Source of the DNA: Gemmatimonadaceae bacterium
Lineage (GTDB): Bacteria > Gemmatimonadota > Gemmatimonadetes > Gemmatimonadales > Gemmatimonadaceae
NCBI GenBank assembly: GCA_025362035.1
Contig: JANYIN010000074.1
Coordinates: 1-64,000 of the forward strand
DNA: 64,000 bases
Direction: 5' to 3'
Part shown: positions 28,510 through 45,998 of the stretch, piece by piece
Layout of the letters: each line of letters starts with the position of its first letter
Numbering within the stretch: position 1 is the stretch's first letter
Made by a program: the position numbers and the translations under genes
Notes under the pieces: generated by a model
Told to the model about the DNA's origin: nothing
What the model saw: only the letters and a program-made list of their open reading frames with translations
Database searches by the model: none

Positions 28510-28537
28510 CGCACTCGGTAGCCGATCATGGAACGCC

Positions 28538-29428
28538 TCACTGCCGTGGAACGAGCATGTGCGCCGCGGACGGCTCGACATGCACCACGGCGGGAGTCAC
28601 GCCGAGGAGTTCGCCGTCCGCTTGAATCGGCAGGACCGGAATCGTCTCCAGTCGAAACTGCCGCCCCCTCCTATATAGTAACGCCGCATCAGGGCGGAAG
28701 TCTCGCCGCATCAGTCTCCACATGATGCGAAGGGCGTCTCCGAGACTGGCCGGAGAGAAGATACAGCAGTCGATCAGGCCGTCGTCACACTCGATGCCCG
28801 GGCCGAATGAAATGCGTCCGTCCAGGATCGCGCCGAAGTTCGCGAACAGCACGGTCGCCGCCGTCCGCTCGATGATCTCCCCGTTCATCTCGATGCGAAC
28901 GTGGAAGAAGCGGCGGGAGAGGACGATGCGCAGCGCCGCGCGCGCGGCGATGAGCGTGTACCCGAGCACGCCGAGCCGATGTTTCATCCGAGGAGACGTT
29001 TCCGCCACCATCGTCGCGTCGATGCCAACGCCCGCCGCGACCGCGAAGTGCCGACCGAGCACGACACCGAGATCGATTTTGCGCACGGTGCCGCGGATCA
29101 GCGCCGGCACGGCTCGGCGCACATCGAGAGGGATGTTGAGTGCCCTCGCGAGCAGGTTCCCTGTACCCGCCGGCAGCACGCCGATCGGGATTTCCGATGA
29201 CGCGAGCGCCGCGGCCACCTCCATCGCCGTGCCGTCGCCGCCGAGGGTAAAGACTACGTCAAAGTCCTTCGCGTGCGCCACCGCGATCTCGAGTGCGTGC
29301 CCCGACCGCTCCGTCAGCGCCACCGCGCACGCCACGCCCTCCGCCTCGATCGCGCGACGGACGTCCTCCAGATACCGCTGGCCGCGTCGAGAGGCCGGGT
29401 TCGCGATGAGCAGCGCGCGCCGGATCAG
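28538..29428 (-). CDS. Diacylglycerol/lipid kinase (DagK family)
   Basis: A soluble/peripheral DagK-YegS family kinase, about 296 aa, which phosphorylates diacylglycerol or a related lipid with ATP. Landmarks: RRALLIANPASRRG at the N-terminus, FTLGGDGTAMEVA (nucleotide-binding GGDGT), GVLPAGTGNLLARAL, and the ISFGPGIECDDGLIDCCIF segment of the C-terminal beta domain. The start is uncertain: homology begins right after a CTG at 29428 that overlaps the tamB stop as CTGA; the nearest conventional start is a TTG at 29503, which would overlap tamB by 79 bp. Confidence 0.85.
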   Translation of the reverse strand: MIRRALLIANPASRRGQRYLEDVRRAIEAEGVACAVALTERSGHALEIAVAHAKDFDVVFTLGGDGTAMEVAAALASSEIPIGVLPAGTGNLLARALNIPLDVRRAVPALIRGTVRKIDLGVVLGRHFAVAAGVGIDATMVAETSPRMKHRLGVLGYTLIAARAALRIVLSRRFFHVRIEMNGEIIERTAATVLFANFGAILDGRISFGPGIECDDGLIDCCIFSPASLGDALRIMWRLMRRDFRPDAALLYRRGRQFRLETIPVLPIQADGELLGVTPAVVHVEPSAAHMLVPRQ

Positions 29429-32400
29429 AAGACCCAGGAGCGGAAGAGTGAAAATCCGATCTGCTGTGGCGTCGGAGCGAACCCGCGCACCGAGTTGCCG
29501 CAACGAAGCGCGCTCGCCGCCGGATCCAGGCCGGCGCGTAGCGCAAGGCGGTCAGGCGCGGCAAGCGGAAAGCGATATTCGACCTTTCCTTCGATGGCAT
29601 CCGCGAAGCCCAGCCGCTGCCCGGACGAGGACTGATCGCAAAAAGCGCTCAGCCCAGTGCTGAAGCTCAGGAAGAGTCGGTCGCTGATCTGCTTCTCGCC
29701 GCCGATGCGCGTACTGGAGAGGAAACTTCTGAACTGACTGGAGGTCGCGGCGGCCGGGGACAACGGATCGCTTGCCGCTCCCGACTGGATCTGGAACAGA
29801 TCGACGAAACCACCAAGCTGGTCTCGCAACACCCGACTCACGTATGCCCCTGCGGACGGCAATACGAACTCGAGCGCGCGCTGGGCGGCGGGCGTGTTCG
29901 AGTTGTCGAGCTCGAAACTGGGACGCCCCGTCAACAGGTAGCTCACGAGATCCGACGGCGACAGATACGCGTCGCTGCTCGAGAGGTCGAGCGTCGGCTG
30001 CGGGTAGAACGGACCGTGGATGCGCGCCTTGACCCCAATGTCTGCGCGGCTTGGCTGCTTCACCTGATACAGTGCGGTGACGTCAATTTCCGGATTGAAA
30101 TCGGGCGTCCCGAAAAAGGTGATGCGGCCGCCGTTCTGCACCTGAAACTCGCGCTGCACCGCGGTCAGGTCCAGGGTGTACGTGCCGCGATCGGCGCTGA
30201 GCGTGCCGCTCAGGGCGAGCTTGTAGCGCGCCGAATCACCCCGCGAATCGCGTGCGAGCGTGGAACGCGTGCTCTCCCGTTCGTCGCGCGCCCGCGTGAC
30301 GCTGAGCGAGCCGCCGAGTTTGATGTTCGCCTCGCGCGACCGCAACCATACATCTTCGCCGAGCAGTACGGACACGCCGCGGAGTTCGAGGTGTTCGGCC
30401 AGAGCCCCGGGCGGCTGCGGCATGATCGATCGATTGCGGACGTCGGTGGTGTCGAAGAGCTGCGCGAAGTCATCGGGGGTGATGTCGACGAGCTGCTTGC
30501 GAACGAGCTCCGGAATGAAGATCGTTCCGCGATCGACGGTTATTGCGCCCGCCAGGGTGGCGGCATCCTGCGTGCCCACCAGCGTGAGGCCGCCGGGTCT
30601 CGTGGACACGTCGAGCCGTGCGACCCCGCGCTTGTCCACGGCGCGGAGCGATTGTGCGTCGAGTCGAAGATCGAACCGCGGCTTGCTCAAGTCCCTGAAC
30701 ACGATAGAACCGCCGAGTGAGGCGGACCCGTTGCTGGCTGGACTGGTCCACCGCAGCCTGTCCAGTGACAGCGAGTCGCGCGCCGCATCGATGAGCAGAC
30801 CACCGTCGATCGCGGCGAATCTGAGCCCCACGCCCGGTATCTCGATGACCCCGTCGTGGACCGACGCCGAACCGCCCACGTGAGGATCGTCAGGTCGGCC
30901 GGTCAGCACGAGATCCAACCCGAGTCGTCCTGTCGAGTTGCGGAGCTTCGGTGATAGTGCTTCGACCAAGGCCAGGTCCACGCTGTCTGCATACACACGA
31001 CCACGAATGGAGTCATTCACCGTGCGCTCGGAAAACAGCGTGAGCGCCACAGGGTAGCTCACGGTCGCGCTCAATAGATTGCGCCCACCACGCAGCACGT
31101 TGGCCTGCAGCGCCGCGCGCTGGGCCTCGTATCCTCCGTCCATCGTGACGAGTTCCGCGGAAATGCCTGCGTACTGGACCTGGAATCCGCTGGCGGCCAG
31201 GGTCACCTTTGGCTGGTCACGCGTTCCCGTCACGCTCAGATCCAGTGACAGCCGCCCGCCCAGGGCGGACGGCAATTGCGCGAGCACACCGAGGTCGGCG
31301 AGCGGTATCGAATCGGCTCGGAGCCCGATACTCGACTGCGCGTCCATGGGGGCACGCATGAAAGCCGTGACGCGCGCCCCCGATGCCTCCGCGAAGAGCA
31401 GCGTATCGAGCACGGCGCCATTGCGCGACTGCGTCAGCAACGATGGACGAAGCAGCGACCAGCGCGACGTGCCGACGCTCACGTTCAGTGTGTCGAGTCG
31501 CACCGCAGTCGTATCCGATCGCGCGGTCCAGTCACCGGCGGCGCGCAGCAGTGCCCCATTTTCCCACCTGGCACCCGCACCGAAGCGGGCATGCTCCGCA
31601 TCCAGGATGTTGGCGGAGAGCGTCGCGGCGTCGATGCGGAGACCGGCCTCAACGACTGTATCGGCGCGCAGATCGAACCCGCCCGACACCGCACCGCGCA
31701 CATCTCGAACAGCGACGCGTCCCGTGATCTCACGCGCTCGATCACCTCGCACGAAAATTCCGCGGCCGGCCATCGAGCCGCTCACGTCCAGCGAGTCAAG
31801 CCACCCTCGCACGAGGGCGCGCAGAGTGACGATGCCGCCCAACGAGTCCGGAGCGGACACGCCGTCGGGATGGCTTGTGCGGCCCAGATAGCGTCGCAAT
31901 CCGCCGAGCGAGTCGACATCCACGTCAATGCACAGCGAATCGGCATCGGCAGTCTGGGTCAAGCCCAGCGCGCCCCGAGCTCGAATCAGTCCGGGTGGGC
32001 CGGCGAATTGCAGCGTGTCGATACGCAGCACGCCGCGATCGAATCGCAACCGGGCCTCGCCATCGGCGAGCCTGAGTCCGTCCACCGTGGATTGGCCGAG
32101 CTTCAATGCGACCGACCCGAACAGGTTCGTCAGCGAGTCGCCGACGAGGTTCAGCTCGAAGGTGCCGGAGAGCGCGGAGACCGGCCGCGGAACCGCGAAC
32201 AAAGCGGCCGCGCCGACGCCGTCGAACGTTCCGCTTCCCTTCGCTCCGTAGCCGCCAACGGAATCAGCATCCACCGTGCCCGCATAGGTGATGTGCCCGG
32301 CGGGACCCGTCAGGTCCGCCTGCACATCGAGGGCAGGTGCCATACCGCGAACGCGGATCGGCCCGCTGAACAAACCGCGAAGCGGCATCTTCGGATAGGA

Positions 32401-34011
32401 CACACTCAGCGTACTCAGCGAGAGCGGCGACGCCTGGAGCGCGAGTTCGTAGTTCATGAACTGCACGCCGTAGGTGATGCGTCCGCCCCCGGTCACGCGG
32501 GTCGGCTCGGCGGAACCGTCCACGTGGGTAAGGTCGGCCTTCGAAACTCGTACGTCGAGCCACGACGAGTCCAGCACCGCGTTGCCGCTGATGATGCCGG
32601 TCATGCGCGGAAAGGCTGGATAGATCGCCGCCAGCGTGCGCAGGTCCACGTGATCCGTGCTCACGAAGAAGCCGTGGAACGCCGTGAACGCAGGGAAGAG
32701 AATGTCGAGTTCACCGTGGCCTTGCACATGCGCCGTGGCGCCTCGCACATGCGCGTCGCTGAACCGCAGATCCGACGCGTCGACCATGAAATGCGTGAGC
32801 GGTCCGCCGCGTGCCGCGACCGTGCCCCGCAGCGATCCCTGCCAGTCGGCAGGGAACGGTTTTCCGTTCAGCGTGCGTAACATGTCGAAATCCACTGGAT
32901 CCGCCACCAGTTTCACGTCGCGGACGCTCAGCACCGGCCCTCCCGTCTCGAATGTCATTTGGCCGCGCAGCCGAGACTTCGTGGACTCCACGTCGAGGTC
33001 GTGAATGGCGTAGTCAAGGCGCGTCAACTCGCGCGCGTTGGCGATGTCGAGCTTCATCCTGCCGCGGCCCGTGGTGGGAAGCGTCGGGTATACCCAATCG
33101 ATGTCGGCAAGGGACATACTGTCGGCGGTGACATGCACGGCATAGCGCACCGGCAGGTCGCTTCCCCACACGATCCGTCCGTCGGCACGCCCTGTCGATC
33201 CGGGCAGGTCCATATGCGACGACGTGAACCACGCCGAATCGCCGAGGACACGGACGGTGCCCGCGACGTTCTTCCATTTGAACGGCGGGGTCGACTCGTC
33301 CACGTGCAGCGTGTCAATCACGACCCGGACGCCGGCCGAATCGGGATCAGCGACGCGTGCATGCGGAATGAAGACGTACGCGTTCGTCCAACGATATGTC
33401 TGCGCGATGCCTTCACGAGTTCGGCGAATCTCATGATCCTTCCGCGCGACGTTGGCCTTGATCGCGCTGTCCTGCCGCGCACCGTGCAGCGAGTCATCCA
33501 CGTGCCACGGAAACGTCAGCCGAAGGCTGCCGCCGTGTCGAACACGCACCGAGTCGAGGACGACGAAGTCCCCGAACCCGCGCTCCGGCCCCCGCTTCGT
33601 GGTTGGGCCGCCCATCTTGAAGATGCTCCGGTAGTTCCATTTCCAGTTCTCGTGCTGGCGCAGTACCAGCGCGGGATGGTCGAGCACCACACTCCGCAGG
33701 TAGAGCCGACGATCCACGAGGTCACGTGGGTCATACCGCACGGCCACCCGTCCCACCGCGAAGAACAGTGAATCCTCTCCATCACGAATCTCGATGGAGT
33801 CGATCGAGATGCCGGTCAGGAAGTTGCCGCTGATTCGGCCGAGGTGAAGCTTGCCGTTGAGCGATGAGGCGACGCGCGATTCAATGGCGTTCCGAATCTC
33901 CGACTGCCCATACTCCGATTGCGTGACGAAGAGCCCCGCGGACACCACGATCACACCGAGCGTCACGAAGACACACACGCTCACGAGCGCGATGAAGTGG
34001 CGACGGGTCAT
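29425..34011 (-). CDS. tamB: TamB-like translocation and assembly protein
   Basis: A 1528-aa TamB/AsmA-like protein. One N-terminal transmembrane anchor (FIALVSVCVFVTLGVIVVSAGLFV, middle about residue 18) precedes a very long beta-rich periplasmic part with many repeats of the pattern TV.ADSV, SVRV or similar, and the C-terminal TamB domain (about 1170-1528; DLTAVQREFQVQNGGRITF, SDLVSYLLTGRPSFEL, GGFVDLFQIQSG). Such proteins bridge the periplasm and move phospholipid or aid outer-membrane protein assembly together with an Omp85 partner, encoded 22 bp upstream. The end overlaps the putative lipid kinase start. Confidence 0.88.
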   Translation of the reverse strand: MTRRHFIALVSVCVFVTLGVIVVSAGLFVTQSEYGQSEIRNAIESRVASSLNGKLHLGRISGNFLTGISIDSIEIRDGEDSLFFAVGRVAVRYDPRDLVDRRLYLRSVVLDHPALVLRQHENWKWNYRSIFKMGGPTTKRGPERGFGDFVVLDSVRVRHGGSLRLTFPWHVDDSLHGARQDSAIKANVARKDHEIRRTREGIAQTYRWTNAYVFIPHARVADPDSAGVRVVIDTLHVDESTPPFKWKNVAGTVRVLGDSAWFTSSHMDLPGSTGRADGRIVWGSDLPVRYAVHVTADSMSLADIDWVYPTLPTTGRGRMKLDIANARELTRLDYAIHDLDVESTKSRLRGQMTFETGGPVLSVRDVKLVADPVDFDMLRTLNGKPFPADWQGSLRGTVAARGGPLTHFMVDASDLRFSDAHVRGATAHVQGHGELDILFPAFTAFHGFFVSTDHVDLRTLAAIYPAFPRMTGIISGNAVLDSSWLDVRVSKADLTHVDGSAEPTRVTGGGRITYGVQFMNYELALQASPLSLSTLSVSYPKMPLRGLFSGPIRVRGMAPALDVQADLTGPAGHITYAGTVDADSVGGYGAKGSGTFDGVGAAALFAVPRPVSALSGTFELNLVGDSLTNLFGSVALKLGQSTVDGLRLADGEARLRFDRGVLRIDTLQFAGPPGLIRARGALGLTQTADADSLCIDVDVDSLGGLRRYLGRTSHPDGVSAPDSLGGIVTLRALVRGWLDSLDVSGSMAGRGIFVRGDRAREITGRVAVRDVRGAVSGGFDLRADTVVEAGLRIDAATLSANILDAEHARFGAGARWENGALLRAAGDWTARSDTTAVRLDTLNVSVGTSRWSLLRPSLLTQSRNGAVLDTLLFAEASGARVTAFMRAPMDAQSSIGLRADSIPLADLGVLAQLPSALGGRLSLDLSVTGTRDQPKVTLAASGFQVQYAGISAELVTMDGGYEAQRAALQANVLRGGRNLLSATVSYPVALTLFSERTVNDSIRGRVYADSVDLALVEALSPKLRNSTGRLGLDLVLTGRPDDPHVGGSASVHDGVIEIPGVGLRFAAIDGGLLIDAARDSLSLDRLRWTSPASNGSASLGGSIVFRDLSKPRFDLRLDAQSLRAVDKRGVARLDVSTRPGGLTLVGTQDAATLAGAITVDRGTIFIPELVRKQLVDITPDDFAQLFDTTDVRNRSIMPQPPGALAEHLELRGVSVLLGEDVWLRSREANIKLGGSLSVTRARDERESTRSTLARDSRGDSARYKLALSGTLSADRGTYTLDLTAVQREFQVQNGGRITFFGTPDFNPEIDVTALYQVKQPSRADIGVKARIHGPFYPQPTLDLSSSDAYLSPSDLVSYLLTGRPSFELDNSNTPAAQRALEFVLPSAGAYVSRVLRDQLGGFVDLFQIQSGAASDPLSPAAATSSQFRSFLSSTRIGGEKQISDRLFLSFSTGLSAFCDQSSSGQRLGFADAIEGKVEYRFPLAAPDRLALRAGLDPAASALRCGNSVRGFAPTPQQIGFSLFRSWVF

Positions 34012-34033
34012 TGAACGCGCGCGAACGGTCGGC

Positions 34034-36334
34034 TCAGAAATCGGGCCCGATGGAAAAGGTGAGCGTCAGGTGGCTGAGAAACGTGTTCGACTGGCTCGGC
34101 TGGAACGTCGCCGGACAGGCGATGCCCGGCAGCTGTTCGACGACATTGTTCTTCCCGACAACGGCTGGAATGCGATTTCCGGGACTGACGCAGTACAACG
34201 GCGCGAACCCCTGCGCGTTCGGCGCCTGATCGTAGTAGATCGCCCCGGCCGGCCGTGGATACGGGTTGTACCCCACATTGGCCTGAAACGGGCCGACGGG
34301 AGTGAACACGCGTACCCCGATGCCCGGTGTCCAGCGAAGGTCGTTCAGGTAGAGTGCCGCCGCCTTGTGGTCAGCGGCGCCGACGGCGATTCCGCGTTGC
34401 CACACGTCGCCTGCGTCGGCGAAGAATGTGTATTGGATGAGCTCGGGCAGGAACGGACTGCGCACGCGCATCTCGAAATTTGCCACGATGAGCGAGTTGC
34501 CACCCACCGGCACCACACGACGCACCTGCGAGTTGGGGGACACATCCACGTACACTGTATCCCCGTTACCATGCGTCGTCGTCGGGTTGTCCTCCGAAAT
34601 GTAGATCAGCGAACCCAATTCGTTCTGCTGAAAGCCACGAACGCTGCCTGCTCCCCCGGCATACAGACGTTCCTCCGGTGGCACATATCCTACGGCGTCA
34701 CCGAACGACAGGGTCCGGTTCAGCACGGTTCCCAGACGCACTCGTAGTGCGAGCGTCACTGCGGCGCCAAGGCCCCGGTATACGGACGCGTCGGAAAGCG
34801 CCTTCACGAACTGAATGTCGGGATCTGATCCGATCTCCCTGCCCGCCCCGCGCAGATCGAGCCGCATGGTCGTGCCGGAGCGCGGGTTGACGAGGTTGTC
34901 GGTGCGGACCCGTTCCAGATGCGCACTCGCGACGGCCAGTGGCCGGTCGCGCTCGGTGAGCAGCGCGCGCGACTCCGAATCGCATCGGCTGAAGAGCGCG
35001 CACAACAGCGCCGGCTGCGCCTCGGTCCGACCGTATTCCAAGGCGTACGCGAGTCGGAGCGGCACCCGGTCCGCAACATCGTGGCTAACGGATGCCTCGC
35101 CCCCCACCAGGGTCGTGCGCAGGAATGCCTGATACTCTCCGCGGCGCTCGCTGTACAGCGAGAGCGATGGCGACGCGCGCAATCCGAATAGTGTCGGGAG
35201 GCGCATCGTCGCACCCACGAAATAATTGAGTTTCGCGCTGAACGTGTCGGCGCGAATCTTCGGCGCACAGAGGTTGCCGCTTGCCACACGCGTGGGCTCC
35301 CCGTAGCCGACCTTCGAGATTTGCGATGTGAGTTCGAGGCGACGCGCCTCGCCGAAAAAGCTCTTGTCGATGAACTGCGCGCGCCCCTTGAAGCAGTCGA
35401 GGACCGCCCAGCCCTCTTCGGTATCGAGCTGCCGCAGATAGTTCTCGGCGACGAGCACGTCGAGCGTCACCAGCGAATCGATCCGCGCTTGCGCGCTGTC
35501 CGCTGCAATCGAGACTTCCACATGACGAAACAGATCGCTCTGATACAGTGTGCGCTGTGCGTCGATGATCTCTCGTTCCCGGTAGAGGGCGCCCTCCTGA
35601 ATGCCGAGCAGCCGTCGAATGGTCGCGTCGCTGAGACGCCGTGGCGCGCCCGGTAGCGGAGCATCGCGCAGCAGGATCGCCCCGATGCGCGCCCGCGAAC
35701 CCGGCACCACCGCAATGTTCACACTCGCGCGGCGGCCTGCGGAATCGAACACGCTGTAGCTCGCCGCCACGTCGCCGCGGGGATAGCCGTTGTTTCTCAA
35801 GCGGGCCTTGAGGGAGTCGATGCTGGCCTGAATTCTGGTGATATCGAACGTGACGCCGCGGTGCAGCCCGAGATCGCTGGTATCGACAATGGGTGCGATC
35901 ACGTTGTCGAGTCCGGAGATGCGGAGCGTATCCACATGCACCGGCTGGCCTTCGTGGATGACGAACGCCACCCGCACCCCGCCATATCCGTCTAGCAGGG
36001 CCGTCACGCTGGTATCGACCGTGGCGCCATAGTAGCCGTGGCGCCGGTAGAACACGCGAAGGCGACCGACGTCGAGCTTCAGCTCGTCGCTGTCGAGGCA
36101 CCGCCTCACGCCCAGGATGCGGAGGTTTCGACGCAACACGTCGGACGCCGTCGTGACCACGCGCAAGCCCAGGTCGCTGGCTCGAAAGGCCTCGGTCCCG
36201 CGGAATTCCAGTGCTCGCACTTCACGCTCGCCGGACTCGCACTCCGTGCTCTGTGCTGGAGCCGCGAGCGGCACGAAAGTCACGAGAGCGGCCGCGACAC
36301 ACCGCCACGCGATTTCGCGCCCGCCAACCATCAT
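34034..36334 (-). CDS. tamA: TamA/BamA-like Omp85 outer-membrane protein
   Basis: A 766-aa Omp85 protein with signal peptide (MMVGGREIAWRCVAAALV to APAQS, about 1-28). Three or so POTRA-like domains occupy about 35-330 (REVRALEFRGTEAF, VHVDTLRISGLDNV, SVNIAVVPGSRARIGAILL). The C-terminal 16-strand-type barrel shows RLYAGGAGSVRGFQQNELG (the VRGF/Y motif), PGIGVRVFTPVGPFQANVGYN and a final LTLTFSIGPDF ending in aromatic Phe. Pairing with tamB indicates TamA rather than BamA. Coupled by ATGA overlap to the small membrane protein gene upstream. Confidence 0.88.
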   Translation of the reverse strand: MMVGGREIAWRCVAAALVTFVPLAAPAQSTECESGEREVRALEFRGTEAFRASDLGLRVVTTASDVLRRNLRILGVRRCLDSDELKLDVGRLRVFYRRHGYYGATVDTSVTALLDGYGGVRVAFVIHEGQPVHVDTLRISGLDNVIAPIVDTSDLGLHRGVTFDITRIQASIDSLKARLRNNGYPRGDVAASYSVFDSAGRRASVNIAVVPGSRARIGAILLRDAPLPGAPRRLSDATIRRLLGIQEGALYREREIIDAQRTLYQSDLFRHVEVSIAADSAQARIDSLVTLDVLVAENYLRQLDTEEGWAVLDCFKGRAQFIDKSFFGEARRLELTSQISKVGYGEPTRVASGNLCAPKIRADTFSAKLNYFVGATMRLPTLFGLRASPSLSLYSERRGEYQAFLRTTLVGGEASVSHDVADRVPLRLAYALEYGRTEAQPALLCALFSRCDSESRALLTERDRPLAVASAHLERVRTDNLVNPRSGTTMRLDLRGAGREIGSDPDIQFVKALSDASVYRGLGAAVTLALRVRLGTVLNRTLSFGDAVGYVPPEERLYAGGAGSVRGFQQNELGSLIYISEDNPTTTHGNGDTVYVDVSPNSQVRRVVPVGGNSLIVANFEMRVRSPFLPELIQYTFFADAGDVWQRGIAVGAADHKAAALYLNDLRWTPGIGVRVFTPVGPFQANVGYNPYPRPAGAIYYDQAPNAQGFAPLYCVSPGNRIPAVVGKNNVVEQLPGIACPATFQPSQSNTFLSHLTLTFSIGPDF

Positions 36335-36564: not shown

Positions 36565-36671
36565 GGACTCGCACGCGTCAAAATGCGGAGGGGCGCAACT
36601 TGCAACGATGTCGAGAGGCGGGACACCGCGCGCCCGCGCGGCGTGTCGCTTCCGGCGGGCGCGTGCTCAAT

Positions 36672-36700
36672 TTGACGATGCTCCCTGACGCGCGTAAGTT
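36672..36700 (+). promoter_or_regulatory. Sigma70-type promoter for the peptide transporter genes
   Basis: TTGACG (36672-36677), a 17-bp spacer and TAAGTT (36695-36700) form a good sigma70-like promoter. A start near 36707 would give a leader of about 37 nt before the ATG at 36744. The same -35 hexamer occurs before the sigma factor gene at 49857. Confidence 0.65.
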
Positions 36701-36743
36701 CTCGCGCCTTCGCCGTGCTGTCAACTGCTTACGCCAGAACATC

Positions 36744-38306
36744 ATGCGCCGCTTATCCGCCATTTGTTTGAGCCTCCTTCTCTGCTGCGGTGGCTGCGGG
36801 GGCGACGGTGGAAACCGGCGCGCCTTGGTGGACTCGCGCGACACCTACGATCCACGCTCGCTCGACCCGGCCCTTTCTACCGACGTCCCCACTGGACGGG
36901 CCGTGGGCTACCTCTTCGACGGGCTCACCCGTTTCACGCCTGATGCCCGTGTGATCCCGGCCCTGGCGACGCGCTGGGACGTGTCCGCAAACGGATACGT
37001 CTACACGTTTCATCTGCGTCACGGTGTGAAGTTCTCGGATGGGACGCCGTTCGTGTCACGACAAGTGGCCAGCAGTTGGCAGCGCGTCCTGGACCCGAAG
37101 GTCAAGGGCGGGCGCGGCTGGCCGCTGTACCCCATCCGAGGCGCCCGGGAATTTGCCGACGGCAAGGCGACGTCTATCGCCGGCATTGCCACACCAAATG
37201 ACTCCACCGTCGTCGTCTCGCTCAAGGAACCGTTCGCCATATTTCCGAAGCTCCTCGCAATGCCCGTTGCGGCGATCGCACCAGACGACATTCCCGTCAA
37301 CTTCGGTGAGCATCCGGTCGGAACCGGACCCTGGAAGCTGGTGGAGTGGCGACACGACGACTACCTGCTCTTCTCGGCGAACAAGGCGTACTGGGGCGGG
37401 CCGCCAAAAGCAGATTCACTCGCGGCGCGCATCATCGCGGAGCCGAGCACGGCCGTCGCGGAATTCGAAAGCGGCAACGTTGACGTGCTCCAGATCCCAC
37501 AGGGTGACATTCGAGCGTGGCAGGAGGACGCCGAACGCCGGAAATTGCTCGCGTCCACTCCGTCCCTCGAGTTGGTGTATGTGGCGATCAACACCACCCG
37601 CGGTCCGCTGAAGGACATTCGTGTGCGGCAAGCGATCAATCATGCCATCGATCGGCGGATGCTCGTTCGGAACCTCATCGCGGGACGCGGCGAACTGGCA
37701 GCCGGCGTCATTCCGTCATCCTTGCCCGGAGCCGACAAGACCCGCATCGGGTACCAGTTCGACACACTGCGAGCCCGCCGGCTGCTCGCGATGGCGGGAT
37801 ACCCCAATGGCATCGATGTCGATCTCTGGACGTCCACCACGCCGATTTATGTTCGCATTGCCGAAACGCTGCAGGGGTACCTTCAGCTCGCCGGTATTCG
37901 CGCCAGAATCATCCAGCGCGAAAGCGCCGCGGCGCGCGAAGCGGCGCGACAGGGACAGGCGGATCTGTTCGTGAAAGACTGGTACGCGGACTATCCCGAC
38001 GCCGAAAACTTTCTGTACCCGCTGCTGCACAGCGCGAACAAGGGAGTGGGAGGGAACGTCTCGTTCTACAGCAACCCACGGTACGATTCACTGGTGACGC
38101 AGGCTCGTCGCGAGCAGGATGAGGGAAAACGGGTGGCACTTTATACACAGGCCGACGACATTGCCTTTCGTGAAGCACCAATGCTGTTCCTGTACTTCTA
38201 TAGTGAGTTGAACGCAATTCAACCCTGGATACGTGGCTTCGTGCCGCCGGTGATCTTCAACGGCCAAACGTGGACGGCCGTCACGAAAGCGGCAGGGCGA
38301 AACTAG
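36744..38306 (+). CDS. Peptide ABC transporter substrate-binding protein (family 5)
   Basis: A 520-aa periplasmic solute-binding protein of the DppA/OppA family. N-terminal lipoprotein-like signal MRRLSAICLSLLLCCGGC with likely lipidated Cys18. Family signature segments: DPRSLDPALSTD, YLFDGLTRFTPD, PALATRWDVSANG, YTFHLRHGVKFSDGTPF, then GTGPWKLVEW and VRQAINHAIDRR. Ligand type (peptide, nickel, sugar) cannot be assigned. The ATG at 36744 is chosen because upstream codons do not match a signal peptide. Followed 5 bp later by its permease. Confidence 0.9.
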   Translation: MRRLSAICLSLLLCCGGCGGDGGNRRALVDSRDTYDPRSLDPALSTDVPTGRAVGYLFDGLTRFTPDARVIPALATRWDVSANGYVYTFHLRHGVKFSDGTPFVSRQVASSWQRVLDPKVKGGRGWPLYPIRGAREFADGKATSIAGIATPNDSTVVVSLKEPFAIFPKLLAMPVAAIAPDDIPVNFGEHPVGTGPWKLVEWRHDDYLLFSANKAYWGGPPKADSLAARIIAEPSTAVAEFESGNVDVLQIPQGDIRAWQEDAERRKLLASTPSLELVYVAINTTRGPLKDIRVRQAINHAIDRRMLVRNLIAGRGELAAGVIPSSLPGADKTRIGYQFDTLRARRLLAMAGYPNGIDVDLWTSTTPIYVRIAETLQGYLQLAGIRARIIQRESAAAREAARQGQADLFVKDWYADYPDAENFLYPLLHSANKGVGGNVSFYSNPRYDSLVTQARREQDEGKRVALYTQADDIAFREAPMLFLYFYSELNAIQPWIRGFVPPVIFNGQTWTAVTKAAGRN

Positions 38307-38311
38307 CCGGC

Positions 38312-39232
38312 ATGACGGCATTCATCGTTCGGCGTCTACTGCTCGCCATCCCCACGCTCTTCGGGGTCCTTGTCGTTGCCTTCCTTCTTTTATATGTCGC
38401 TCCCGGCGATCCCGTCATGGCCATGGTCGGTGAGCGCGCGGACGAAGCCACCATCGCGAGGCTTCGCGCCGAACTTCGGCTCGACGATCCATGGCCGGCG
38501 CGGTTCGGGCACTACGTCGCCAGCATTGCCGGAGGTGATCTTGGCAAGTCCTACATCACGAACCGACCGATCAAGCAGGACATCGTCGAGCGATTTCCGA
38601 AGACGTTGCAACTGGCGGGTGCCGCCATGCTGCTCGCCACGGTCATCGGCGTCACACTCGGTGTCTTCAGCGCGCGAGCCCCGGGCGGACTGCTCGACCG
38701 CGTGGGCCTCGCTGTAGCATATCTCGGCATCAGCTTTCCGGTGTACTGGGTCGGCCTCCTGTTTATCCTGCTGTTTGCGGTCACGCTCCATTGGCTGCCA
38801 CCATCGGGGTTTGGCGGCGTGCGATATCTGGTGTTGCCCGCGCTGGCGCTCGGCATGCGGTCCATTGCGTTTCTCGCGCGGATGACGCGTACCGCCATGC
38901 TCGACGCGCTCGGCGCGGACTACGTGCGAACGGCGCGTGCCAAGGGGCTCCAGGAGAGGCTCGTGGTAGGGAAGCATGCGCTGCGCAATGCGCTGATTCC
39001 CATCATCACCGTGCTGGGACTCGACTTCGGCGCATATCTCACCGGTAGCATCCTCACCGAAACGATCTTTTCCTGGCCCGGCCTTGGGCGCTACGTTGTG
39101 AACGCGATCGCGCGTCGCGATCTTCCGGCCATTCAGGGATCGATACTTTTTCTGAGTGCGGTGTTCGTCCTCGTGAACCTCATCACGGATATCGCCTACG
39201 CCAAAGCCGATCCGCGAGTCACGTACGGGTGA
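38312..39232 (+). CDS. ABC transporter permease, DppB-like
   Basis: A 306-aa inner-membrane permease with about six helices. N-terminal FIVRRLLLAIPTLFGVLVVAF, the APGDPVMAMVG segment and the EAA-type cytoplasmic loop DYVRTARAKGLQERLVVGKHALRNAL are typical of the first permease in dipeptide/oligopeptide systems. It normally pairs with a DppC-like subunit and two ATPases; none are present here, and a MazG-like gene overlaps its stop by 4 bp (GTGA). The missing parts may be encoded elsewhere, or the operon was broken. Confidence 0.9.
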   Translation: MTAFIVRRLLLAIPTLFGVLVVAFLLLYVAPGDPVMAMVGERADEATIARLRAELRLDDPWPARFGHYVASIAGGDLGKSYITNRPIKQDIVERFPKTLQLAGAAMLLATVIGVTLGVFSARAPGGLLDRVGLAVAYLGISFPVYWVGLLFILLFAVTLHWLPPSGFGGVRYLVLPALALGMRSIAFLARMTRTAMLDALGADYVRTARAKGLQERLVVGKHALRNALIPIITVLGLDFGAYLTGSILTETIFSWPGLGRYVVNAIARRDLPAIQGSILFLSAVFVLVNLITDIAYAKADPRVTYG

Positions 39233-39859: not shown

Positions 39860-40468
39860 ATGAAAAAGCCGACGAAGGCCCTGCACGCTCTACTGTCCGT
39901 CGCCCTGGTCAGCGCCACGATCGGCCTCGCGGCTTGCGCCCACGATACGACCGCCCCCTCAGCGTCCAGGCCGACCATCGGCGACGCCAGCAAAGCGCTC
40001 TCTGGCGCGGTCGACCAGACGTACTCGTGGACGGTGGATCCGACGAAGGACAGTCCGCAACTCGCTTTCGGCTCGAGCTACCTCGTGATCCCGGCCAACT
40101 CCATTTGTGCGCTCGCGTCGTCGTCGTACGGTCCGTCCTATTGGACGGCGCCGTGCGTTCCGGAAACGCAGCCGGTGACCATCACGGCAACCGTGCACAA
40201 CTCGCAGACTTCCAACCCGAGCATCGACTTCGAGCCGGCGTTGCGATACAACCCTGCGGTCGCTCTCCCAACGCTGCTGTTCTCGGTCACGGACGCCGCG
40301 ACCCTTACGAACATGACGGCGGTGAAATATTGCGCAAACGCGCTGTTGGCATCGTCCTGCGTGGACGAGTCGCTCAGCGACGCCGCGCTGACCACCACCG
40401 TCAACGCTGCGAACAACACCCTCTGGCGTCACATCAGGCACTTCAGCGGCTACATGGTCTCCGAATAA
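39860..40468 (+). CDS. Secreted lipoprotein of unknown function ending in HFSGY
   Basis: A 202-aa lipoprotein. Signal: MKKPTKALHALLSVAL then a lipobox IGLAAC with lipidated Cys near residue 31. The mature part is Ser/Thr-rich with two Cys pairs (ICALAS/APCVP and YCANALLASSCVD) that may form disulfides. It ends LWRHIRHFSGYMVSE; an HFSGY-like ending is shared with the next gene. The ATG at 39860 is chosen as the signal starts there. No enzyme motif. Confidence 0.75.
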   Translation: MKKPTKALHALLSVALVSATIGLAACAHDTTAPSASRPTIGDASKALSGAVDQTYSWTVDPTKDSPQLAFGSSYLVIPANSICALASSSYGPSYWTAPCVPETQPVTITATVHNSQTSNPSIDFEPALRYNPAVALPTLLFSVTDAATLTNMTAVKYCANALLASSCVDESLSDAALTTTVNAANNTLWRHIRHFSGYMVSE

Positions 40469-40539
40469 CGCGCCGCAACATTCATTTCGCCTGCCAATCC
40501 TCGTTCATGAGCGCCGACGCCGCCACAACCGGAGACCCC

Positions 40540-41127
40540 ATGAAGAACCGAATTGCGCTGTGGCCGATGCTGCTCGCCGTCGCCGTCAGCAGCGCCTGCA
40601 CCGCCGCGGACACAACGACGTCACCTAACGTGATGGCGGCCAGCGCTCCTGCGAGCGCGAGCAAGGCCCCCCACGCCGCGGTGCAAGTGCTACTTGACGA
40701 AGCCGTGCCGCAGGACTGGCTGGTCCGGGTGCTCGCGCCTCTCTCCGCCAGCGTACGCGTGGATGAGGAGACTGGCGGCGTCATCAGCATTCCGGCGACC
40801 GGCGCCACGCTCACCATCCCCGCCGGTGCAGTCCATGAGTCAACGGTCATCACGATGACTGCGCTCCCGGGTTCGCTGGTTGCGTTCGACTACTCTCCGG
40901 CCGGCACCAAGTTCAAGAAGCCGCTCAACATGCAGGTGGACCTCGGGCTGACCAACTGGAACGGTCAACCGTTCAGCGTCGTCTACTTCAAGTCGAATGA
41001 CGACATCGACGAGAAGCGGCACAAGATCAAGATCTCCGAAGTGCTTCCAGTCACCGTCGTTGGTCGGACGGCGAACTATGATCTCTGGCACTTCTCCGGC
41101 TACGCGCTGTCATCCAGCAGGCGGTAA
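40540..41127 (+). CDS. ZU5-like lipoprotein
   Basis: A 195-aa lipoprotein: MKNRIALWPMLLAVAV with lipobox VSSAC (Cys near 20). The mature part carries a ZU5-like motif (ISIPATGATLTIPAGAVHES, TMTALPGSLVAFDYSPAG) of the sort seen in secreted carbohydrate or scaffold proteins, and ends DLWHFSGYALSSSRR, echoing the preceding gene. GGAGACCC just before the ATG is a usable ribosome-binding site. Function unknown; a cell-surface structural or binding role is inference. Confidence 0.75.
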   Translation: MKNRIALWPMLLAVAVSSACTAADTTTSPNVMAASAPASASKAPHAAVQVLLDEAVPQDWLVRVLAPLSASVRVDEETGGVISIPATGATLTIPAGAVHESTVITMTALPGSLVAFDYSPAGTKFKKPLNMQVDLGLTNWNGQPFSVVYFKSNDDIDEKRHKIKISEVLPVTVVGRTANYDLWHFSGYALSSSRR

Positions 41128-41155: not shown

Positions 41156-41188
41156 ACAGCTGCGATGAACGCTCGTCATCGCAGCTGT
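41156..41188 (+). terminator. Perfect 13-bp hairpin after the lipoprotein genes
   Basis: ACAGCTGCGATGA and TCATCGCAGCTGT pair perfectly across a 7-nt loop. The stem ends 28 bp before the next start codon. Followed by GCCGTCTTTATC, so the T-run is weak; it may still terminate or attenuate transcription into the large gene downstream. Confidence 0.65.
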
Positions 41189-41216
41189 GCCGTCTTTATC
41201 TGTTCGGTACCACGCC

Positions 41217-44200
41217 ATGACGATCCCGTCGCCTCGACCGACCGCAGTGCCGTCGCGCGCACCGCACCTTCAGTTGGTGCCGGTGGCGAAGGCGCGGCTG
41301 TCGACAGACGAAATCATCGAACAGGCTCGGGGGCTGGAGCGGGAAGGGCGGCGGCACGAGGCCCGCGCGGCGTATGAGACCGCGCTGCGCAGCCTGGTGG
41401 GGCCGTCTCCCGCGATGGCCTCATCACTGCTTCGCTGGATCGCGCGCAGCTACGAAAGCGAGGCGGACTTTGCGGCTGCAGAGGACTGCGCGGAAGCGGC
41501 GCTCGCTTGCGCCGAAATGGCTGGAGAGCGCGAGCCCCTTGGCCACGCGCTCAACATGCTCGGCATTGTGCGACTCCGCCAAGGTCTCCTGGATCAGGCC
41601 GAACAACTCCTGAACGACGCGCTCGCGCGCGGCACCACCGACAGCAATCCGCGCCTGACTGTGGATGTCACCACGAACCTTGGCGCTCTCGCCAGCTGGC
41701 GTGGCGATTTCCGGCAGGCGCTGTTGCGCTATCAGCAATCCCTGGAGAGCGGCCGACTCCACAACCTGCCCGAGAAGATTCTTCCAACCCTCATCAACCT
41801 TGGGGTGACGAACATGGCGCTCGGGCGCCTGGACGCCGCAGAGGCCGCGTTTCTTGAGGCAAGTGGCATCGCCAACGTTCTCGGGGATCTCTCCTACCGC
41901 ATCCTGATCGGCGTGAACAATGCCGCGCTCCGGGTCGAACGCGGCGATTACGCCGCAGCGGCCCGGTATTGTGACGACGCCATGCATCTGGCCGAGCACT
42001 CCGACGATCTCCTCGCCAAGGGAGAGGCACAGAAGATTTACGGCGTCATCGCCCGCGAAACAGGCGATTTTGCGGCGGCCGAAGCCCGCCTCCTCGACGC
42101 GTGTCGCGTTGCGGCCGACACGAGCAGTCTCTCACTCGAAGGCGAAGCCCGTCGGGAGCTGGCGGAACTCTACGTTCGCCTGGGACGCAATCGGGAAACG
42201 CTCCAGTCCTTGAATCGGGCACATGCCTGCTTCACCACGCTTCGGGCCGGCCACGACCTGGCCGACGTCGGCCGTCGGATGCTCCGGCTGGAGGGAGACT
42301 TCCTCGGCATCGCGCGAAAGTGGGGCGAATCGATCGAATCGAAGGACACGCACACTCAGGGCCACTGTGAGCGTGTTGCCGATCTCGCCACGGCGCTCGC
42401 ATCCAGGGCCGGACTAGATGAAACCTCGCTGTTCTGGTTTCGCATCGGAGCGCTGCTCCATGACGTCGGCAAGCTTGTTGTGCCCGCCGAAGTGCTGAAC
42501 AAGGCGGGCAAGCTCACGGAAGAGGAATGGGCGCTCATGCGCCGCCATCCGAACGCCGGTGTCGAGATGCTTGCCGACGTCGAGTTCCCATGGGACGTGA
42601 CGCCGATAGTGAAGAGTCATCATGAGCGCTGGGACGGCCGCGGATACCCCGACGGGCTCGTCGCCACCGCCATTCCGCTGACGGCACGCATTCTCTGCAT
42701 CGCCGATGTGTACGACGCGCTGACTGCGAAGCGATCGTACAAACGCGCCTTTACGCATCTCGAAGCGATGGAGATCATGCGGCACGAGGTGGGTGCGCAA
42801 TTTGACCCGGCTCTCTTTGCGAATTTCGAGGACCTCGCCCGCGACGGTCTCGGGCACGCGGTCGTTGGCAAGGTCCGCGCCGTGTCGTCCGGGGTCATCG
42901 CCCGCAAGGTCGCCTTGGCGACCGACGAGGACGATCTCACGGGGGCGCTCGTGCGTCGCGCGTTCACCGAGCTTACGAATGCCGTCCTGACGGAGCGCCG
43001 ACGCACCAGCGCACCGGTATCGTTGCTCGTCATCGACGTGGACAAGTTCAAGGCCGTGAACGATTCCTACGGCCACCTCACGGGGGACGACGCCCTCTGG
43101 ACCGTGGTGGATGTCGCGCGCGACGTCCTGCGACCCGGGCAATACATCGGCCGATACGCGGGAGATGAGTTCGTCGTATTGCTTCCCGGACTGGATCTGA
43201 CGGCCGCCGCCGGCGTCGCGGAAGACCTCCGTGCACGCGTTTCGGCGCTCCCGGTAGCGGTCCGTGACGAGCCCTCGCGAGAGGTGGTCGTCACGCTGTC
43301 CATCGGCGTGGCGAGCGCACCGGAGCACGGCACCACCTTCGACACGCTCTTCACGATCGCTGACCGCGCCCTCCTCGACGCCAAGCGCGACGGTCGCGAC
43401 AAGGTGGTGCTGGCTGGCGGCGGCTCAAGTGTCCGACCGCGGCTCGAGTGCAATCAGTTCGTTGGACGCGACGCGGAACTCCGAAGTCTGCACAGGGCAC
43501 TGGAAGACAGTGCCAACGGAGAGCCGTCCATACGGACCGTTTTGGGTGAAGCGGGCGTGGGCAAGTCCACCCTCGTGCGCCAACTGCTCCCCGAAGTCCA
43601 CAGGCGCGGCGGCGTGCTCGCGATCGGGCGCGCACTGGAAAGCGCCTCGCCCGCCCCGTATGGGCTGTGGGTGGACCTGATCGCTCAGATCGACGGCCTG
43701 GGGCTCGTTCCCAATCGAGACTGGCCCCTGCTCGCGCGGCTGCTCCCCTGCCTGGGCCAGGAGCACAAGAGTGCGAGCGTATCCGCGCTCGACACGACGC
43801 AGCGTCACCAGATGCTCCGCGAGCTCGCTGCCTACCTGCGGACTGCGGGCGAGCAGAAGCTACTCGTTCTGGCGTTGGAGGACATGCATTGGGCCGACTC
43901 GGCAAGCTGGGATGCGCTCGAGTACGTACTCAGCCAACTCACCACGGACCGAGTCTGCATCACGCTCACCTTGCGCAGCGAAGACGCCATGCAGGACGCT
44001 CCGAAGGACCGCCTGCAACGCTTATCGCGCAACGAGCGAGTGCGCGAGCTCCGCCTCGAGCGTTTGAGCGTCGTTGAAATCACGGACTGGCTCTGCGCGA
44101 CGCTGCGCCACACCAGCATTGGCGAGAAGCTCGTGAACTTCGTGCTCCGCCATACTGAGGGCAATCCGTTCCTGGTCACGCAGCTGTTGCGCACCATGGA

Positions 44201-45998
44201 GCAGGAGGACCTCTTCACGCACGATGGGACCAGCTGGCGATGGACGCTTCCACACGCGTTGGCACTTCCGTCGGGAATGACGGACCTGCTCGCGCGGCGC
44301 CTGTCGGGACTGACCTCCGAGACCAAGCGCGTGCTCGTCGCTGCGGCCGCAATCGGACGCACCTTTGCGCTCGACCTGCTGGCCGACGTCGCGAAGCTCC
44401 CCATGGAGCAGGTGCTCGACGCGATCGACGCAGCACTCGCGTCGTCGGTCATCGAGGGCGCGATCGGTCGCGAAGACGACGCGTACCAGTTCTCACACGC
44501 GCTGCTCGTGGATGCGGTCGAGCAGACGGTGAGTGTCACGCGCCGTCGGCTGTTGCACGAACGGATCGGCGACGTGTTGCAGGAGCGCAATACGGGTGCA
44601 ATCGAGGCGATTGCATCGCACTACGCCAAGAGTGGCAATAGCAGCAAGGCGTACGCGGCCTGCGTGCGCGCCGCCGACGAGGCCCTGGCATTGTACGCGC
44701 TCGACGAGGCCGCAAGCTTTCTCACGCTCGCACTCGCGCGGGCCGCCGATGAAGAAGGACGCGCACGCGTGCAGGAGGGCATCGCACACGTGGCTGAGCT
44801 CTCGGGACGATGGGCCGAAGCCGAGAGTGCCTGCGCCGCGCTACTCGGCATGGCCGCCGTCACCAGCAATTCGCTACGCCACCTTTTTACGAGGCTGCGC
44901 CACATGCAGGCGCGGGCGCGCCTGGGGTACGACGAAGAAAGTGAAGCCGTCTGCCGCACGCTGCTCGCGGATGCGGAGGCACTCGAATCACTTCCCGCCA
45001 TCGTGCAGGCTCGGTCCCTTCTGGTTCAGACGCTCGTGCGTACGGGCGCTGTCGATTCTGCCATCCGCGTGGCATCCGACACGCTGGCGCTCGCGGAGAC
45101 CGCCGGCGAGAAATCGTTCGTGGCCGACGCGATGTACCGCCTCGCGATCACCCTGAACAGCGCGCGCCCCGCCGATGCCGACGATCTCCTTGTGAGGCTC
45201 GTGGCGTATTCGCGTGCACGTGACAATCGCGTGATGGAAGCCCGCGCCCTCCTGGCGCTTGGCGTGTCGAGGTCGCGCACGCAGAATGACCAAGCCGGTG
45301 GCGCTGCGTTCCGGGCGGCGCTGGCGATCGCGAACGAGGCTTCCGCACTCGACGTCGCGGCGAATGCATCCATGAACCTCGGCGTCATCGAAATGCGCGC
45401 CGGCGAGTTTGGGAGCGCGGGCGGTCTATTCAGCTCCGCCCTGCAGCTCAACGCGACCCTCCGCAACAACCCAAAGCGCCTCGTCGCGCTTTACAACCTC
45501 GCGCACATCGAGCGTGAGCGTGGCGATGGCAAGAGCGCGCTGCGCCTCTATGCGGAGAGTGCGGAACTCGCGGACGAGCTGGGCGCGGGAGACATCGCCA
45601 TCGGCGCCCTGGCCGGCCTGGGTTTGACCGCGCTCAGTCTCGGTGACGTCGCTGATGCCGCCGTGGCCTTCACCAGGGCGGAGGTGCTGCTCGGCACGCG
45701 CCACGACTGGTGGTTCCAGGGACGCGAACTGCTGGAGTCTCTGGCCGTTCGCCTCGGCGGCGAACGTGGCGCCACCACGGCCACGCTCGCGCGATTCTTG
45801 AATGCGGTTTCACGCCTGGAGGCGATGGAGAGCTATGCCGCAGCCTGGTTCATCGCCGATTGCGCGCTGAGCGTGATGCACCTGGATCCGTCAGTACTCC
45901 AGACCACTTTGCGCGTGGGCGCGCTGCCCGCGGTGCAGCAATACGCGTCCATGCGCGCCCGCTTCAACGCCCTCCTGAACATCACCGATCGAGCCTGA
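41217..45998 (+). CDS. TPR / HD-GYP / GGDEF / ATPase / TPR signalling protein
   Basis: A 1593-aa cytoplasmic multidomain protein. N-terminal TPR repeats (about 25-370) precede an HD-GYP phosphodiesterase domain with HD at 415-416 and HHERWDGRGYP (468-478), a full catalytic set. A GGDEF domain follows (about 590-720) with AGDEF at 648-652, then a STAND-like ATPase with P-loop GEAGVGKST (777-785) and LALEDMHWAD. The rest (about 1100-1593) is TPR-rich. HD-GYP degrades and GGDEF makes c-di-GMP; combining both with an AfsR/MalT-type ATPase is unusual. Start at the ATG at 41217, after the hairpin. No partner gene is adjacent. Confidence 0.9.
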   Translation: MTIPSPRPTAVPSRAPHLQLVPVAKARLSTDEIIEQARGLEREGRRHEARAAYETALRSLVGPSPAMASSLLRWIARSYESEADFAAAEDCAEAALACAEMAGEREPLGHALNMLGIVRLRQGLLDQAEQLLNDALARGTTDSNPRLTVDVTTNLGALASWRGDFRQALLRYQQSLESGRLHNLPEKILPTLINLGVTNMALGRLDAAEAAFLEASGIANVLGDLSYRILIGVNNAALRVERGDYAAAARYCDDAMHLAEHSDDLLAKGEAQKIYGVIARETGDFAAAEARLLDACRVAADTSSLSLEGEARRELAELYVRLGRNRETLQSLNRAHACFTTLRAGHDLADVGRRMLRLEGDFLGIARKWGESIESKDTHTQGHCERVADLATALASRAGLDETSLFWFRIGALLHDVGKLVVPAEVLNKAGKLTEEEWALMRRHPNAGVEMLADVEFPWDVTPIVKSHHERWDGRGYPDGLVATAIPLTARILCIADVYDALTAKRSYKRAFTHLEAMEIMRHEVGAQFDPALFANFEDLARDGLGHAVVGKVRAVSSGVIARKVALATDEDDLTGALVRRAFTELTNAVLTERRRTSAPVSLLVIDVDKFKAVNDSYGHLTGDDALWTVVDVARDVLRPGQYIGRYAGDEFVVLLPGLDLTAAAGVAEDLRARVSALPVAVRDEPSREVVVTLSIGVASAPEHGTTFDTLFTIADRALLDAKRDGRDKVVLAGGGSSVRPRLECNQFVGRDAELRSLHRALEDSANGEPSIRTVLGEAGVGKSTLVRQLLPEVHRRGGVLAIGRALESASPAPYGLWVDLIAQIDGLGLVPNRDWPLLARLLPCLGQEHKSASVSALDTTQRHQMLRELAAYLRTAGEQKLLVLALEDMHWADSASWDALEYVLSQLTTDRVCITLTLRSEDAMQDAPKDRLQRLSRNERVRELRLERLSVVEITDWLCATLRHTSIGEKLVNFVLRHTEGNPFLVTQLLRTMEQEDLFTHDGTSWRWTLPHALALPSGMTDLLARRLSGLTSETKRVLVAAAAIGRTFALDLLADVAKLPMEQVLDAIDAALASSVIEGAIGREDDAYQFSHALLVDAVEQTVSVTRRRLLHERIGDVLQERNTGAIEAIASHYAKSGNSSKAYAACVRAADEALALYALDEAASFLTLALARAADEEGRARVQEGIAHVAELSGRWAEAESACAALLGMAAVTSNSLRHLFTRLRHMQARARLGYDEESEAVCRTLLADAEALESLPAIVQARSLLVQTLVRTGAVDSAIRVASDTLALAETAGEKSFVADAMYRLAITLNSARPADADDLLVRLVAYSRARDNRVMEARALLALGVSRSRTQNDQAGGAAFRAALAIANEASALDVAANASMNLGVIEMRAGEFGSAGGLFSSALQLNATLRNNPKRLVALYNLAHIERERGDGKSALRLYAESAELADELGAGDIAIGALAGLGLTALSLGDVADAAVAFTRAEVLLGTRHDWWFQGRELLESLAVRLGGERGATTATLARFLNAVSRLEAMESYAAAWFIADCALSVMHLDPSVLQTTLRVGALPAVQQYASMRARFNALLNITDRA

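Follow-up and report, generated by a model that had tools for sequence, protein, structure and literature searches.

A family of TPR-HD-GYP-GGDEF-STAND-TPR proteins in Gemmatimonadota, its candidate c-di-GMP activities and its linkage to exported lipoproteins

The window considered here, that is, the whole stretch of 64,000 nucleotides that was analysed, belongs to an assembly of 4.64 Mb in 212 contigs and carries on its + strand a gene (41217..45998) whose product joins in a single chain TPR, HD-GYP, GGDEF, AAA_16/STAND and TPR parts. The open reading frame spans 41187-45998, with an in-frame GTG at 41187 upstream of the ATG at 41217, from which a stop-free protein of 1593 amino acids is encoded. 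Its order of domains had been stated correctly in the first-pass annotation, as confirmed by Pfam, with E-values of 4e-41 for HD_5, 3e-35 for GGDEF and 2e-26 for AAA_16, and with TPR_12/TPR_MalT matches at both ends of the protein. All of these parts lie on the + strand: an N-terminal, MalT-like TPR array supported by Pfam and by a family profile (residues ~30-358, 41304..42290), the HD-GYP phosphodiesterase domain (residues 373-533, 42333..42815), the GGDEF diguanylate cyclase domain (residues 571-728, 42927..43400), the AAA_16 P-loop ATPase (residues 747-915, 43455..43961), a helical and winged-helix part typical of STAND proteins, with EGNPF and YQFSHALLVDAV motifs and supported by a structural model (residues ~916-1125, 43962..44591), and a C-terminal TPR superhelix recognised by Pfam, the model and a profile search (residues ~1130-1593, 44604..45995). 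Chance domain calls and a frameshift artefact are ruled out by the full-length homologues found in many genomes, those of the same genome and genus sharing 53-60% identity, far beyond chance. Directly upstream, and overlooked in the first-pass annotation, two genes for exported lipoproteins are encoded on the same strand (39860..40468 and 40540..41127), the second of which (with a possible alternative ATG at 40507) ends 89 bp ahead of the ATG of the main gene. They are preceded by the genes of a family 5 (oligopeptide-type) solute-binding protein (36618..38306, +) and, beside it, of a permease of an oligopeptide-type ABC importer (38270..39232, +; BPD_transp_1, 1e-40). Farther away, the - strand carries at 24424-36334 the genes of a multi-PAS/GAF hybrid histidine kinase and of TamB-like and Omp85/POTRA proteins, apparently unrelated. 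A promoter and terminator scan of the + strand around the three genes gave no match, and such a scan is uninformative in a GC-rich genome.

The HD-GYP domain retains the HD pair (residues 415-416), the HHExxDGxGYP signature (HHERWDGRGYP, residues 468-478) and the further metal ligands, its motifs also comprising E374..H383 and IADVYDAL, and in PDB sequence comparisons it aligns lengthwise with solved HD-GYP phosphodiesterases. The best of these matches is the 3'3'-cGAMP phosphodiesterase 5z7c, which might be taken to mean that the nucleotide handled is cGAMP or another cyclic dinucleotide, and not c-di-GMP. However, the similarity to 5z7c is a family-wide property of the HD-GYP part, and the GGDEF selectivity position holds Asp (GHLTGD), the c-di-GMP form, where the known cGAMP-making GGDEFs have Ser, which makes this reading extremely improbable. 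The GGDEF domain, in turn, keeps the metal aspartates and the guanine-binding Asn and Asp (DVDKFKAVND..GHLTGDD) together with AGDEF at residues 648-652, a known active variant of the motif, so that it belongs by sequence among the diguanylate cyclases. Only ~1.6% of GGDEF proteins carry AG(D/E)EF, and an AGDEF protein of Vibrio cholerae, VCA0965, produces c-di-GMP in vitro (PMC3974145), which means that AGDEF is no sign of inactivity. The RxxD inhibitory site, common but not required in GGDEF cyclases, is absent: its place is taken by RPGQ in the main protein and across the genus clade (once KPGQ), and RxxD appears in some copies from other genera. With Walker A and B also intact, no sign of inactivation is seen at any of the three sites of this protein. 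The earlier claim of complete HD-GYP and AGDEF cyclase motifs thus holds at the level of sequence, and the scenario that would have undone it, inactivity of all three catalytic sites, is unsupported, every motif examined being retained in this copy. The same retention speaks against a reading in which the protein, its enzyme parts being inactive, serves as a receptor for c-di-GMP or nucleotides, or as a scaffold; such a role is very improbable, despite the existence of inactive family members, as a related GGDEF-AAA_16-TPR group has lost its GGDEF residues and, mostly, Walker A as well.

The ATPase half was modelled over residues 735-1593 from 44 homologues, with a pLDDT of 92. Its best fold match in the PDB is PH0952, a TPR-sensor STAND protein (3e-15), further matches being Avs3, Apaf-1 and MalT, and the model shows the NTPase, helical domain, winged helix and repeat superstructure that characterise the STAND fold; the predicted winged helix between the ATPase and the TPRs had previously escaped attention. 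The motifs agree with this, namely Walker A (GEAGVGKST, residues 777-785), Walker B (LALEDMHWAD) and EGNPF after the ATPase core. What had been proposed as a STAND-like ATPase is therefore borne out by motifs, predicted fold and best structural match. MalT, AfsR and PH0952 present a P-loop ATPase, a winged helix and a TPR superhelix in the identical order, whereas the main protein has as outputs a c-di-GMP cyclase and a phosphodiesterase instead of DNA binding, and bears a second TPR array at the opposite end. GGDEF domains must pair to work and many STAND proteins oligomerise, so STAND oligomerisation would be a natural on-switch for the GGDEF domain, and it is in this form that we infer the gating. 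In STAND proteins, the arm and the sensor are thought to keep the ATPase shut until a ligand binds, and AfsR illustrates both autoinhibition and control by ATP; its oligomeric state, however, is unchanged upon ATP binding (PMC10936776), so that STAND activation does not always proceed via oligomerisation, a point that counts against such a switch. Given the intact c-di-GMP motifs and the STAND-like half, gating by ATP or a ligand, as suggested in the first-pass annotation, can reasonably be supposed. A role in anti-phage defence was discarded, all PADLOC matches being of a generic TPR, HD or P-loop kind.

The architecture is not unique to this genome, nor is its order the isolated oddity that it had seemed to be, since 37 of 395 Gemmatimonadota genomes, all within one bacterial family, have a match at 1e-150, and relatives hold dozens of family copies. 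Nor does it seem widespread across phyla: when 84,980 genomes were scanned for the domain pattern, none of the matches listed showed the full order outside Gemmatimonadota. No characterised member of the TPR-HD-GYP-GGDEF-AAA_16-TPR family was found in the literature searched. In the same genome there are two more full-length copies, arranged in tandem (58% and 53% identity), one TPR-HD-GYP protein and one GGDEF-AAA_16-TPR protein with degraded GGDEF and Walker A residues. One of the tandem paralogues (L029:9483-14279, contig C27) has lost the HD histidine to Phe (FD) and keeps AGDEF intact; judging from these residues it is probably a cyclase only, and both activities are thus not needed in every copy. 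The degraded GGDEF-AAA_16-TPR protein (L052, contig C97) has counterparts elsewhere (L048, L049, L053, L054, L057, L066), likewise with a degraded GGDEF motif; in most of this set, although not in L057, Walker A is degraded too, and in most of them a lipoprotein gene lies directly 3'. There are also TPR-HD-GYP-GGDEF-AAA_16 proteins that stop before the C-terminal TPRs (L046, L047), with a lipoprotein gene downstream, and TPR-HD-GYP proteins that stand alone are found in a second bacterial family.

Outside the fused family there are close modular relatives, which further weaken the idea of an isolated oddity. In Acidobacteriota, the phylum of a Pyrinomonadaceae record, 15 of 297 genomes have a strong match, and in most of the 15 GGDEF is joined to AAA_16, the examples read having GGDEF-AAA_16 either alone or after a Ser/Thr kinase, several of them with TPRs. 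For instance, among the ~1400-aa Acidobacteriota proteins L207-L212, the two that were scanned (L208, L210) contain a Ser/Thr kinase, GGDEF, AAA_16 and TPRs on a single chain. These Pkinase-GGDEF-AAA_16-TPR and GGDEF-AAA_16-TPR proteins share with the main protein the GGDEF-AAA_16-TPR core, but have a Ser/Thr kinase or nothing where the latter has its TPR-HD-GYP half. No match to the GGDEF-AAA_16-TPR half came from the phylum to which an Anaeromyxobacter locus belongs (195 genomes), and that of a Chloroflexi locus (251 genomes) gave ATPase-TPR matches only, nearly all starting past GGDEF. Within the genome of the window, the AAA_16 module is also found behind a SAM-class III cyclase (reminiscent of soluble adenylyl cyclase) and behind a protein kinase; in both, as in the main protein, an enzyme output stands directly before AAA_16, the difference being that here GGDEF takes that place and an HD-GYP module is added. 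Deinococcus TPR-HD-GYP-TPR-GGDEF proteins also unite TPRs and the two c-di-GMP domains on a single chain, HD-GYP first, but lack the ATPase and have TPRs between the enzyme domains. From the separate cases of enzyme-AAA_16-TPR proteins it follows that the main family is part of a wider pattern of enzyme outputs placed on an AAA_16-TPR switch, among which the addition of TPR-HD-GYP is its distinguishing feature.

How did the two halves come together? In the tree of the TPR-HD-GYP part, stand-alone forms from the second family as well as from two genera fall outside the fused proteins (support 89), and losses come later. In the tree of the ATPase-TPR part, the GGDEF-AAA_16-TPR singles are united in one clade (100) grouped with some fused proteins (90); an inner group of that clade (100) shows decay of the catalytic residues. 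In most of the singles GGDEF and Walker A degrade together, which fits the two acting as one unit. As the simplest reading, these sequence trees suggest a single, family-wide event in which a stand-alone TPR-HD-GYP protein and a GGDEF-AAA_16-TPR protein were fused, followed by several losses or splits; the support for it is moderate, these being quick trees with moderate values at the key nodes. The survival of TPR-HD-GYP as a separate, ancestral half can also be turned into an argument for a mainly phosphodiesterase function, with the AGDEF domain binding GTP and serving as its allosteric input, a role known from some GGDEF-EAL proteins. The HD-GYP motifs are complete in nearly all copies, and, among three TPR-HD-GYP-GGDEF proteins, GGDEF is degenerate in L050 and L056 and low-scoring in L223. 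Nevertheless, the full-length copies retain all GGDEF catalytic positions, AGDEF is known as an active motif (PMC3974145), and the tandem paralogue pairs a broken HD with an intact GGDEF, so that this alternative appears unlikely.

The linkage of the family genes to lipoproteins is a new observation. A signal peptide is predicted in both upstream products, together with a Cys that is likely to serve for lipid attachment, and both lipoprotein families share a C-terminal HFSGY motif. An unguided comparison of flanks showed homologues of both upstream genes adjoining other family genes; 60 of the 86 lipoprotein copies examined (41 genomes searched) are no more than 3 kb away from a family gene, and 43 of 63 family genes have a lipoprotein gene within 500 bp on the same strand, the linkage spanning two bacterial families. 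The lipoprotein gene is mostly upstream of the genes that bear TPR-HD-GYP, in some cases overlapping them, and these upstream counts are not independent, as the search alignments were built partly from upstream neighbours. Independent evidence is given by the GGDEF-AAA_16-TPR singles, 10 of 17 of which have the lipoprotein gene downstream, in copies that were outside the search alignments, and by an unbiased clustering of 20-kb regions, in which lipoproteins were the commonest neighbour (18 of 21 regions). Apart from them and from the family 5 binding protein, other neighbours recur in at most 4 of 21 loci.

The lipoprotein next to the main gene (40540-41127) has a Pfam ZU5 match that is weak (8e-5) but above the cut-off. 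Its model (pLDDT 77, core >90) finds as top PDB matches the ZU5 domains of ankyrin, UNC5b and ZO-1, followed by the GAIN domains of adhesion GPCRs, with TM-scores of ~0.4 that indicate a match at the level of the fold, i.e., the ZU5/GAIN beta-sandwich. Domains of the ZU5 superfamily undergo self-cleavage at HF|S or SF|S right before the last strand (PMC3210808), and self-processing ZU5 domains of bacterial surface proteins had been proposed earlier, with a CxH motif (PMC3482391). In the lipoprotein, a motif of this kind (HF|S, SF|S or HL|T before the final strand) is present as HFS at residues 195-197 (41089-41097), which the model places between the last two strands (188-195 and 198-202). HFS is found in 63 of 64 complete copies of both lipoprotein families, the remaining one having HFT, and the tails after it vary from 7 to 66 residues. 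The fold and an HFS shortly before the last strand are shared with the ZU5, GAIN-GPS and Nup98 group (PIDD, CARD8, adhesion GPCRs; PMC3210808), unlike which these are small exported bacterial lipoproteins with no receptor or death domain, their cleavage being putative. The other lipoprotein (39860-40468) represents a second exported family, with HFS at 40439-40447 and with no Pfam match and no meaningful PDB match.

An exported protein with a self-cleavage motif that adjoins an enzyme gene brings to mind the RRNPP receptors, which bind their peptides through TPR arrays. A circuit resembling theirs is possible on thin evidence: the lipoprotein would cut itself at HF|S, and its C-terminal peptide would enter through an oligopeptide importer and be bound by the TPR arrays, setting c-di-GMP. 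The binding protein of the window (SBP_bac_5, 5e-92; recurrent) could fit such a layout, in which linkage to an exported protein is present but an importer gene is found at only 7 of 63 loci: a family 5 binding protein is encoded no more than 5 kb away from 7 of 63 family genes, where 0.8 would be expected (Poisson test, p ~2e-5 on the assumption of independent loci, which does not fully hold), and an oligopeptide-type permease is also near L253 and L260. It is possible that the family 5 binding protein is a further linked gene of the system. Moreover, a profile search with the C-terminal half reaches NprR and RapJ, although far down among general TPR matches, and no RRNPP family appears among the Pfam matches of the main protein. 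Against such a circuit, the lengths of the lipoprotein tails are highly variable, the binding protein is missing at most loci, and that of the window belongs to a conserved group whose sister-genome members are not near family genes, so that its nearness to the main gene may be accidental. Overall, the peptide circuit is decidedly unlikely. At G017:C335 and G026:C198, a distance of ~1.4 kb separates ZU5-like lipoprotein genes from genes of family 5 binding proteins, with no family enzyme listed nearby.

With a confidence little above even, we favour a STAND-switched bifunctional c-di-GMP enzyme that is functionally tied to an exported lipoprotein partner. The cytosolic enzyme would consist of two separable sensor-effector halves, TPR-HD-GYP degrading c-di-GMP and GGDEF-STAND-TPR synthesising it. 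At rest, the TPR arm would keep the STAND module closed; a ligand, probably a peptide or protein, on the C-terminal TPRs would then lead to nucleotide exchange and oligomerisation, and the oligomerised STAND module would pair the GGDEF domains into the dimers needed for synthesis, the N-terminal TPRs tuning the HD-GYP half. The upstream lipoproteins would act in the same system, the ZU5/GAIN-like one probably as a surface-side signal source, sensor or output. This proposal is supported by the near-universal AGDEF of the fused copies as compared with its rarity among GGDEF proteins, by the existence of both halves separately in relatives and by the class III cyclase and kinase outputs of the same ATPase module in the same genome, whereas the degenerate inhibitory site and the FD copy weigh against it. 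The lipoprotein may supply the ligand, may be an output regulated together with the enzyme or may have another role, and the linkage could reflect shared regulation rather than contact. In a bolder version, an exported, self-cleaving GAIN/ZU5-like lipoprotein would give rise to a signal, which might be its own C-terminal peptide, and the STAND-TPR c-di-GMP switch would detect this signal inside the cell; such a system is speculative and rather unlikely.

The gating of c-di-GMP enzymes usually falls to PAS, GAF, REC or membrane sensors. If the favoured proposal is true, a STAND switch placed ahead of both cyclase and phosphodiesterase would add c-di-GMP synthesis to the outputs of NLR-like ATPases, and would offer a simple mechanism, based on the dimerisation that GGDEF domains require and the oligomerisation of many STAND proteins. 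In Gemmatimonadota, where c-di-GMP signalling appears almost unstudied in the literature searched, the linkage to lipoproteins gives a c-di-GMP system a testable partner, and one whose fold and motif are common to PIDD, NLRP1 and adhesion GPCRs may provide a handle on what the enzyme senses.
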